In this document: in pieces, positions 14,225-17,479 of the stretch
Numbering within the stretch: the first letter of the stretch is position 1
Layout: each line of letters opens with the position of its first letter
From: Cyanidiococcus yangmingshanensis
Lineage: Eukaryota; Rhodophyta; Bangiophyceae; Cyanidiales; Cyanidiaceae
Assembly (NCBI GenBank): GCA_013995675.1
Contig: VWRR01000020.1
Span: 238,644-302,643 of the forward strand
Reading direction: 5' to 3'
DNA: 64,000 nucleotides
The notes under the pieces: model-generated
Databases searched by the model: none
What the model was told of the DNA's origin: nothing
What the model saw: only the letters and a program-made list of their open reading frames with translations
Translations under genes and position numbers: made by a program

Positions 14225-14824
14225 TTATGCGTCTGGAAATTCAAAAACAACATCCTTCCCGGTAAGCTTCTTATAAACGACCGCATATGTATCGATACGA
14301 TGCTCAACCTGGGGACGCTCGCGCGGATCCAAGTGCACCCGCATCAAACGGCTCTGGTCCGTCCGATAAAGAACCCGCTTACCTATAATATCAGTCGGAT
14401 ATACCACATCCTCCAAATAGGCCTCGTGCACGGCGGTAAGCGTGCGCGACCTAGGCCGTTTCTGCTTCAGCAAGCGTCGTCCGTGCCGTTCCTTTGGCAG
14501 GATGCGCCGCTTGCCAATAATCACCACCTGCCGCCCACTAAACTTTTTCTCCAACTCTCGAACGAGACGCGTATGCACACGATGATACTTGGCAAGCAGG
14601 CGATAGGGCACGACGAGGAGGATCGCTCGCCGGCCGCCGCCAATGTCCATCTCCGTCGCGTTATGAAAGACCAACTCTCGCAGATCAGTTCGCCACTCCG
14701 CAGAACCAGCTTCCAAGTCCTGCATCGCCTGCGCCATCTGCTCCTCAATAGGAAGAATCGTCTCTTTCGGTCCTTTCAAAATTCGTCGCTTCAACACAAC
14801 TTGGCCCTCGGCTGTAGACTCCAT
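14225..14824 (-). CDS. RPS7: 40S ribosomal protein S7 (eS7)
   Basis: Small-subunit ribosomal protein eS7. The ~199-residue product shows family blocks in order: the region around LVFHNATEMDIGGGRRAILLVVPY, then LVRELEKKFSGRQVVIIGKRRI, then the tail segment around LTAVHEAYLEDVVYPTDIIGKR, ending in GKDVVFEFP. Length fits eS7. The frame is open upstream to a GTG at 14872, but the ATG at 14824 fits the family N-terminus. It converges with the CCCH gene, leaving only about 17 bases between stops, and diverges from the permuted tRNA gene. Confidence 0.95.
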   Translation of the reverse strand: MESTAEGQVVLKRRILKGPKETILPIEEQMAQAMQDLEAGSAEWRTDLRELVFHNATEMDIGGGRRAILLVVPYRLLAKYHRVHTRLVRELEKKFSGRQVVIIGKRRILPKERHGRRLLKQKRPRSRTLTAVHEAYLEDVVYPTDIIGKRVLYRTDQSRLMRVHLDPRERPQVEHRIDTYAVVYKKLTGKDVVFEFPDA

Positions 14825-14955
14825 GGTTGGCAGCGACCCACGCACGCACACACGCACAGTCCTTGTCGACACGCCTCACGCATGCATCATGGACGCGCAC
14901 GCATCGCGCCGCGGCGACGACGCCGACGCACACCCATGCGCTTGACACCACGGCC

Positions 14956-14963
14956 TTTATATA
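14956..14963. promoter_or_regulatory. TATA-like box upstream of the permuted tRNA gene
   Basis: TTTATATA lies about 43 bases before the 3' half of the tRNA gene, between it and the divergent eS7 gene. Position fits a TATA element for RNA polymerase III, though it could equally serve eS7. Confidence 0.45.
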
Positions 14964-15005
14964 CCAATTTGGACACCAGTACTCACATCTTCGTAACGGG
15001 ACCCC

Positions 15006-15098
15006 AGGATCGAAACCTCGTCTCGCTAACGAGCATGTCCAATGCATCCAGCGAGATGGCGCAGCGGAAGCGTGATGGGCTCATAACCCATAGGTCCG
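15006..15098 (+). tRNA. Circularly permuted initiator tRNA-Met (CAU)
   Basis: The two halves are in reversed order. The 3' half (15006-15027: T-arm part, T-loop ATCGAAA, acceptor 3' strand TCTCGCT) comes first. A 22-base spacer follows, then the 5' half (15050-15098). The 5' half holds acceptor AGCGAGA, D-arm GCGC-AGCGGAA-GCGT, anticodon arm ATGGG-CTCATAA-CCCAT, and AGGTC. The acceptor pairs perfectly over 7 bp. Joining after 15098 to 15006 makes a perfect T-stem (CGAGG with CCTCG). A1-T72, the GGG/CCC anticodon stem, and A in place of T at position 54 mark the eukaryotic initiator. The exact junction is inferred; neighbouring choices leave one T-stem mismatch. Confidence 0.9.
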
Positions 15099-15106
15099 TC
15101 CGTTCG

Positions 15107-15111
15107 TTTTT
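15107..15111 (+). terminator. RNA polymerase III T-run terminator
   Basis: TTTTT begins eight bases after the inferred end of the tRNA 5' half. This is where the transcript of a permuted pre-tRNA should stop. Confidence 0.6.
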
Positions 15112-15439: not shown

Positions 15440-17479
15440 TCAGCTGCCTCGGGAGAGAGACGCAGACACCGACGATGTCTTTCGAATCGTCATCGCAGCA
15501 GCAGCAGCAGCAGTCGCAGATGATGTCGATGTCGATGAACGTACTCCCGTCGAAGCGTAGAATGCACGAAGCTCCGCGAATCGCGCTGCACATGCTGCAG
15601 CACTACGTGTCGGCACAAGCGTGGCTACCAGACGCCAACGTGCTGCCCCGTGAGATGGTCCAAACTGACGAAGTGCCTCTTCAAGCTGCCGCTGTTCCTC
15701 AATCGTCCATGAGGCTGCGTTCGGTGGTGTCAGATTGGCCGTTCGGCTGCACGGTGCTCGCATCAGTGCATGTGCCTGCGCTCGGATCTCCTCAGGCGAG
15801 TATCGATGCTGGAGTGCCTCTGCGATGCGGGTCCATCGATCGCGAGTACCTACAGGGAATTTCTTCAGAGCACGGGATAGTAAAGCTAGCCCGGTGGTGC
15901 TCCATGTTTCTTTGGAGGCACCCGATGCGGACGGGGCATCCACAGCGCGCATGCCGACGCCTTCTTGCGCGAGATCCTTCGCTGGCGACCTTGAGGACGA
16001 TGCGGGCACCTCACAAGATACTGATGCAGCATTCGTATCGCGCATGTTTGCACGCTCCACCGAGTCTGGCGATGCGGACGGCGCTGGTGCTCGTGCCGAT
16101 GTCGTCTCACTTGGGGACAAAGTCCGTCCATGCTCAGCAGACATCGACGGATGCAGATCGGGCGCTTGGTATCCTTGGTGACGACCAGGCGGTTCTGCTG
16201 TTCCGATACCGACAGCAGCATTCGTCATCAGCGCTGAGGCGAGATCCTGGTGGCCATTTGGCTTTTCCGTGGAATGTCGTGGAGTTTGCGTCGCGAGCCG
16301 TTCGCCTCGTGAAGCAGACGGATCGGAGATGCTCGAGCAATCGTTCGTGTTGGTGCGTCGCATCTCTGCACGGGATTGGGATCCTGTCTGGTCATCTGCA
16401 GCTACTGTGCGTCCAGCGCTGGTCTCTTGCCACGACATGACATGCGGTGTTGCACGAACCGATACGTTCTGGAATGCATTCAGCACAACGGTGCCGTTGG
16501 CTGCATCATCTTCGAGCCATTTTTGACGGAACCGTCGTCGAGCGGCGCGCTCCTCTGCCTTGCGTTCCCGTTCCGCTTCTCGCATTCGCCGGATGCGAGG
16601 ATCCAGTCGATAGCATGTCTCTACGAGTTGTCTTAGACGCGCTCGCTCTGCCTGTCTCCGACGCGCTCGCTCCTTACGCTGCTGTCGCTCGTGCCAACGG
16701 CGCTCCTCTCGCGTCATACTCAAATCATCCCAAATCTGATCGTCATCTTCATCGGGAAACTCACGCCACGAGTCAAAAGCCTGCCAGAAGGCGTAAAAGC
16801 GACGTACTTGAGCATCTGGGGTATCCGCATTCCCCAGCTGCGGTACTGGCTGCTGGCGGCTCCAACGGGCATTCCGCTCGAAAGCCGCCCCAAAAACGGT
16901 GTAGAACTCGTCCTCAGTCCGGCTCGTATCCGCATCAGGAATACGATCGTCAAACGTGCCATCCATAGAGTCGTAGAGACAGCGGCGCTGAGGGTGCAGC
17001 AGGACGCGCATCGCCTGCTGCAGTCGTTGAAACACTTCCTGAGCCTGCAGGCGAGCGGCCGGAGGCCAGCGAACGACTCGATCGGGGTGCACCGCCCTCG
17101 AAACCTCTTTATAAGCTCGGCGGATATCCGCTACGGTGGCCTGGTATCGAGTCTGCTCCAGGCCGAGCAGTCGATACCAGTCACTTTCCCGCGCAGCGGC
17201 CAGGAGTGAAGCAGCCAGCGCCGTCGTTGCAGTAGGCGGTGTCGTCGATGCCCCGCTGCTACAAGACTCGGACACTGTGCTCGAAACCGCACCATCAACG
17301 TGATCAGAAGCTTCATTCTCGCGTTCAACTCGCTCAAACTGGTAAAAGAACGCCCATCCAGCACACTCAACGCGACGTTGACGCAGAGAAACCGCCCCGA
17401 ATGCCACGGTTGGCAACAGCGTCACGAACGCAAGCGCCCGAACTGGCCGTTTCACGTCATCAAGCGCACACTCACTCAT
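15440..17479 (-). CDS. ZUO1: Zuotin/DNAJC2 ribosome-associated J-protein
   Basis: A 679-residue homologue of Zuotin (DNAJC2/MPP11), the J-domain partner in the ribosome-associated complex that recruits Hsp70 to nascent chains. In order: an N-terminal segment with the family VE..GWAFF pattern (residues ~37-46); a J domain (~100-165) with the HPD triad at 131-133; the zuotin homology region (~175-310) with FDDRIP, VFGAAFERNARWS, FYAFWQAFDSWREFPDEDD and a highly charged helix; a low-complexity linker; and two C-terminal SANT/Myb-like domains (~550-660, WTIEEQRQLEEALRQFG in the second). The SANT pair matches the animal/plant form rather than the yeast one. A hydrophobic stretch at residues ~15-32 is unusual. 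The frame is unbroken. Confidence 0.93.
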   Translation of the reverse strand: MSECALDDVKRPVRALAFVTLLPTVAFGAVSLRQRRVECAGWAFFYQFERVERENEASDHVDGAVSSTVSESCSSGASTTPPTATTALAASLLAAARESDWYRLLGLEQTRYQATVADIRRAYKEVSRAVHPDRVVRWPPAARLQAQEVFQRLQQAMRVLLHPQRRCLYDSMDGTFDDRIPDADTSRTEDEFYTVFGAAFERNARWSRQQPVPQLGNADTPDAQVRRFYAFWQAFDSWREFPDEDDDQIWDDLSMTREERRWHERQQRKERARRRQAERARLRQLVETCYRLDPRIRRMREAERERKAEERAARRRFRQKWLEDDAANGTVVLNAFQNVSVRATPHVMSWQETSAGRTVAADDQTGSQSRAEMRRTNTNDCSSISDPSASRGERLATQTPRHSTEKPNGHQDLASALMTNAAVGIGTAEPPGRHQGYQAPDLHPSMSAEHGRTLSPSETTSARAPAPSASPDSVERANMRDTNAASVSCEVPASSSRSPAKDLAQEGVGMRAVDAPSASGASKETWSTTGLALLSRALKKFPVGTRDRWTRIAEALQHRYSPEEIRAQAHALMRAPCSRTANLTPPNAASWTIEEQRQLEEALRQFGPSHGAARWRLVATLVPTRSAAACAARFAELRAFYASTGVRSSTSTSSATAAAAAAMTIRKTSSVSASLSRGS

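Follow-up and report, generated by a model that had tools for sequence, protein, structure and literature searches.

A circularly permuted gene for initiator tRNA-Met was, reportedly, originally described in C. merolae by Soma et al. in 2007. There are 34 permuted tRNA genes listed in Soma 2014 (PMC3978253), and in Table 1 of that paper the C. merolae iMet(CAT) gene is entered as permuted, type III, with the junction at 50/51, a 74-bp spacer and no intron. The same table includes permuted, intron-free iMet(CAT) genes from Micromonas pusilla and Micromonas sp. RCC299, and a permuted iMet(CAT) gene from the archaeon Thermofilum pendens. However, the junction is at 37/38 in the two Micromonas genes (spacers of 47 and 12 bp, respectively), and the T. 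pendens gene has its junction at 59/60, contains an intron, encodes the CCA and has a spacer of 7 bp (PMC3978253).

The gene described here, from the hot-spring red alga Cyanidiococcus yangmingshanensis, resembles that of C. merolae in specifying the initiator tRNA, in its 50/51 junction and in having no intron, but the spacer is 21 nt rather than the 74 bp listed for C. merolae (PMC3978253). The junction position and the kinship of the two organisms make orthology with the C. merolae permuted iMet gene the most likely relationship. The initial annotation treated the permutation of this particular tRNA gene as notable. This is much less new than was claimed, because Table 1 of PMC3978253 already contains a C. 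merolae permuted iMet gene joined at 50/51, along with permuted iMet genes of the two Micromonas and T. pendens. A permuted initiator gene, even one with this junction, is thus already in print, and we describe a further example from a relative of C. merolae. Among the titles and abstracts covered by a literature search there was no report of permuted tRNA genes in Cyanidiococcus, and in PMC13353863 the word 'permuted' occurs once, inside a reference title.

Structure of the initiator tRNA gene

The window, i.e. the whole 64-kb stretch of DNA analysed, corresponds to G000:C13:238644-302643 in a genome assembly of 12,072,675 bases (12.07 Mb) in 20 contigs; the C. merolae genome is 16.5 Mb. All features of the tRNA gene are on the forward strand. 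The 3' half (tRNA positions 51-72) is at 15006-15027 and is followed by the discriminator base A73 at 15028 (CCA is not encoded), by an intervening sequence of 21 nt at 15029-15049 that separates the two acceptor strands, and by the intron-free 5' half, which covers positions 1-50 and carries the anticodon CAT, at 15050-15098. The 3' half therefore lies upstream and the 5' half downstream, with the spacer linking the acceptor ends. Both halves were delimited from the sequence, from ARAGORN applied to the joined form and from a covariance model. The elements that the initial annotation had recorded are all in place, namely the acceptor 3' strand TCTCGCT at 15021-15027, the T loop ATCGAAA at 15009-15015, a gap of 22 bases (15028-15049, with A73 counted in) and the matching AGCGAGA at 15050-15056, as are the 7-bp acceptor stem free of mismatches and the anticodon loop CTCATAA.

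When 15098 is connected to 15006, the product is an initiator tRNA-Met(CAT) of 72 nt with the junction at tRNA position 50/51, in which the 7-bp acceptor stem, the 5-bp T stem and the 5-bp anticodon stem are all perfect. The T stem is perfect only across this join, where CG|AGG pairs with CCTCG. An alternative T stem formed from the contiguous CCAGG (15004-15008) has a C-C mismatch at 50/64, whereas the 15098/15006 join has none. Eukaryotic initiator tRNA-Met is marked by an A1-U72 pair, three G-C pairs at 29-31/39-41 and A60. Each of these is found in the joined 72-mer, which bears out the initiator-type bases noted previously, and the CAT anticodon and A54U55C56 are also present, the latter being given as a mark of initiator tRNAs in PMC3978253.

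The unit occupies a gap of 615 bp. On one side is the gene for ribosomal protein eS7 (14225-14824, minus strand; PF01251, E 1.5e-70), which is divergent from the tRNA gene, and on the other is a gene for a DnaJ/zuotin-type/Myb protein (15440-17479, minus strand), identified by protein search. Apart from the window's own protein, the protein search gave relatives with at most 61% identity, none of them labelled as cyanidiophyte.

A TATA-type promoter, CTTTATATACCAATTT, is located at 14955-14970, 51 bases ahead of the 3' half, and a run of TTTTT resembling an RNA polymerase III terminator is at 15107-15111. Both had been pointed out in the initial annotation and both exist, but the box falls outside the interval 15006-15111 that had been assigned to the gene. 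Neither a TATA box nor a T run is found within the 21-nt spacer. In permuted genes the A and B boxes are in reversed order, making the upstream TATA box important, and most permuted genes of C. merolae are stated to have an upstream TATA box and a downstream T run (PMC3978253). T runs are also present downstream of the other permuted tRNA genes of this genome. The exact 16-mer occurs five times in the genome, each time ahead of a tRNA gene (His, Ser, Val, iMet and a Tyr gene read by eye). The pattern CTTTATAN{4,6}ATTT has 23 genome matches, compared with six for the reversed control; 17 of them lead into a tRNA gene within 330 bases and six do not. Those 17 genes comprise 11 called by ARAGORN, three from the Rfam search, one seen by eye (Tyr) and two that are permuted (iMet and Thr), and among the ARAGORN calls that for Asp (L104) and perhaps that for Glu (L089) are doubtful in detail.

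The ends of the two halves can be drawn as a bulge-helix-bulge, the motif that the initial annotation had proposed to look for. The leader (14995-15005) consists of AACGG, GACC (15000-15003) and CC, the part of the bulge CC|A that precedes the cut, and faces the end of the 5' half and the trailer (15099-15104), which together read GGTC-CG|T-CCGTT, the trailer contributing CCGTT and, from the bulge CG|T, the final T. Here GACC/GGTC is a 4-bp central helix and AACGG/CCGTT an outer helix, and a cut after the second base of each 3-nt bulge would leave 15006 and 15098 as the tRNA ends, exact to the base. There is also an inner helix, which is weak. The minimum-energy fold of the precursor keeps the outer and central helices together with the acceptor, D and anticodon stems, and the centroid fold disrupts part of the bulge-helix-bulge. 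Compared with shuffled sequences the precursor folds modestly better (z -1.91), with 8 of 200 shuffles equally good.

Detection and copy number

Ordinary tRNA finders miss permuted genes. With the DNA in its native order, ARAGORN made no tRNA call at the iMet locus or anywhere in the window, and an Rfam search at gathering scores gave no match in its 64 kb. When the joined 72-mer was supplied, ARAGORN called tRNA-Met(cat). A covariance model was built from eight ordinary tRNAs of the same genome that were permuted in silico at 50/51, with iMet excluded, and was calibrated briefly, so that its E values are rough. This model matches exactly 15006-15098 (47.1 bits, E 2.8e-10) with no broken pair, and up to an E value of 10 the single other match in the window scores 13.2 bits. 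However, ordinary tRNAs used in the training also score with permuted models, reaching 50.9 bits for a Val gene against 47.1 for iMet. The score alone is therefore no proof, and it is the complete match without a broken pair that distinguishes iMet. A strict grammar requiring the T loop, seven perfect acceptor pairs and the D arm has one match in the window (both strands), at iMet. It had no match when 400 random sequences of 64 kb with matching dinucleotide frequencies were scanned, on one strand apiece; when the D-arm test was dropped, five matches were found across the 400. The ARAGORN call on the joined form, the permuted-model match and the bulge-helix-bulge together support the original reading of the locus as a circularly permuted initiator tRNA-Met gene.

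The initial annotation had named, among the findings that would count against this reading, an initiator tRNA gene of conventional layout elsewhere in the genome. None was found by BLAST, pattern searches, Rfam or ARAGORN in the 20 contigs of the assembly, among which the organelle genomes may not be represented. A BLAST search of the assembly with the joined 72-mer recovered these two halves and nothing else. The pattern TGGCGCAGNGGNAGCG has one exact match in the genome, the iMet locus, and looser matching yields a background-level count (248, compared with 217 for the reversed pattern). The iMet locus is likewise the one exact match to GGGCNCATAACCC; 18 more sites match with one mismatch, and at none of them did ARAGORN find a tRNA within the surrounding 301 bases. 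For GGATCGAAACC there are 20 matches against seven for the control. Five of the other 19 have a 7-pair acceptor partner within 301 bases, and none of these five then has the T-R-G start of a D arm. This control rests on the acceptor partner and the D arm; the T-stem test was set aside because the junction splits the T stem, and the real iMet gene would fail it (two of three outer pairs). Among at least 16 Rfam tRNA matches, obtained with 63 of 292 candidates scored, all 16 carry T54 and none has the A54 of the initiator. An elongator tRNA-Met gene was not located in the assembly. The locus is probably the sole cytosolic initiator tRNA-Met gene of the nuclear genome.

Maturation and alternative explanations

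In our assessment the probability is about 0.95 that the cytosolic initiator tRNA-Met is encoded by this locus as a working permuted gene of type III (50/51), which is probably the only nuclear copy, is most likely orthologous to the C. merolae gene and is matured via a circle. The structure of the gene is seen directly in the DNA; for every RNA step we infer the course from work on other algae. Transcription by RNA polymerase III would start from the upstream TATA box and stop at the run of five Ts, and the leader and trailer of the transcript would pair to form the bulge-helix-bulge. The tRNA splicing endonuclease would then cleave both 3-nt bulges, in each case between the second and third bases, and a ligase would seal 15098 to 15006, producing a circular RNA. 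From this circle the 21-nt spacer would be trimmed away at the acceptor stem by RNase P and tRNase Z, and CCA addition would follow. Circular intermediates of algal permuted tRNAs have been detected by RT-PCR, and homologs of Sen2, Sen34 and Sen54, with Sen15 absent, have been reported for C. merolae (PMC3978253). The splicing endonuclease family PF01974 has two matches in the present genome (G000:C6:417326-417559 and G000:C20:206592-206837), a number that agrees with the pair of catalytic subunits reported in C. merolae.

The two halves might instead be non-functional relics of a tRNA gene that was tandemly duplicated and then lost its outer halves, with a conventional iMet gene active elsewhere. 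Such remains could exist, as tandem duplication followed by loss of the outer halves is one of the published models for the origin of permuted genes (PMC3978253), and a gene could be missing from the assembly. We consider this very improbable, given that the acceptor, D and anticodon pairs and the T-stem pairs that span the junction are all intact, that the promoter, the terminator and the bulge-helix-bulge have been retained, and that neither the BLAST and pattern searches nor the 16 T54-bearing Rfam matches offered a second copy.

The probability that the halves are separate split-tRNA genes, joined in trans and not part of one permuted transcript, is negligible. Split tRNAs are found in archaea (PMC3978253) and the halves here are non-contiguous, but a single promoter and a single terminator enclose both, the spacer between them has no TATA box or T run of its own, and C. 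merolae iMet is listed as permuted (PMC3978253). A chance resemblance, or halves swapped by an assembly error, is likewise extremely improbable. This gene order does rest on one assembly of the species. Against chance stand the exact covariance match and the failure of the strict grammar to match any random sequence, and against an assembly error stand the identical junction listed for C. merolae (PMC3978253) and the presence of four further permuted genes on other contigs (two on C16 and one each on C12 and C6). The permuted, circle-matured initiator gene remains the preferred reading.

Other permuted tRNA genes and their significance

The four further genes make up a partial inventory, in which spacers are counted after base 73. 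The tRNA-Thr(AGT) gene (L101:1544-1639; G000:C16:18029-18124, plus strand) is type II with its junction at 37/38, a 24-nt spacer and the promoter CTTTATATATCAATTT. The tRNA-Lys(TTT) gene (L107; G000:C12, about 771,700-771,863, minus strand) is split in the T loop and has a 38-nt spacer; it is type IV by comparison, the exact T-loop base not being fixed, and the Rfam search caught the 5' half only. The tRNA-Gln(CTG) gene (L124:1381-1525; G000:C16:609788-609932, minus strand) is type II, 37/38, with a 73-nt spacer. The tRNA-Glu(CTC) gene (L114:1907-2016; G000:C6:158353-158462, minus strand), also type II, 37/38, has a 23-nt spacer and a T-loop intron of approximately 15 nt. In their joined forms Thr, Lys and Gln were called by ARAGORN, and Glu was called once the intron had been removed. 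A BLAST search of the genome with the joined Glu(CTC) found its own locus only.

The Thr(AGT), Lys(TTT) and Gln(CTG) genes are permuted in C. merolae too, with the same spacer lengths for Thr (24) and Lys (38) but 31 rather than 73 for Gln (PMC3978253). Two of the four shared spacers thus equal the published lengths, which suggests that the same counting convention was used. In contrast, the C. merolae list has 11 permuted genes and Glu(CTC) is not one of them (PMC3978253), and for this reason it is perhaps permuted only in the Cyanidiococcus lineage.

Approximately 400 bases from the permuted Glu(CTC) gene, on the opposite strand, there is a further candidate (L114 near 1500; G000:C6, about 157,800-157,970, plus strand) for which ARAGORN gives Ser(aga), with an intron of 42 nt, and which by eye reads as an intron-bearing Glu(TTC). 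Seven more loci (L091, L042, L043, L046, L119, L126 and L127) contain tRNA genes that, by eye, are apparently interrupted by introns outside the usual anticodon-loop site, and several of these were missed by ARAGORN.

In the two genera the permutation falls at an identical base of an essential and apparently single-copy tRNA gene, and it would accordingly be old and stable and not the quirk of one strain. This old permutation would coexist with a spacer that is free to change. We also suggest, tentatively and at somewhat less than even odds, that the sister genera differ through turnover in which of their tRNA genes are permuted, while the initiator stays permuted. Comparison of the permuted sets of close relatives is a direct route to the origin of permuted genes, a question left open in PMC3978253. 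If the turnover is real, the pair formed by Cyanidiococcus and C. merolae would record that permutation was recently gained or lost, and the lineage would have been making its sole initiator tRNA via a circle from a time that predates the separation of the two genera.
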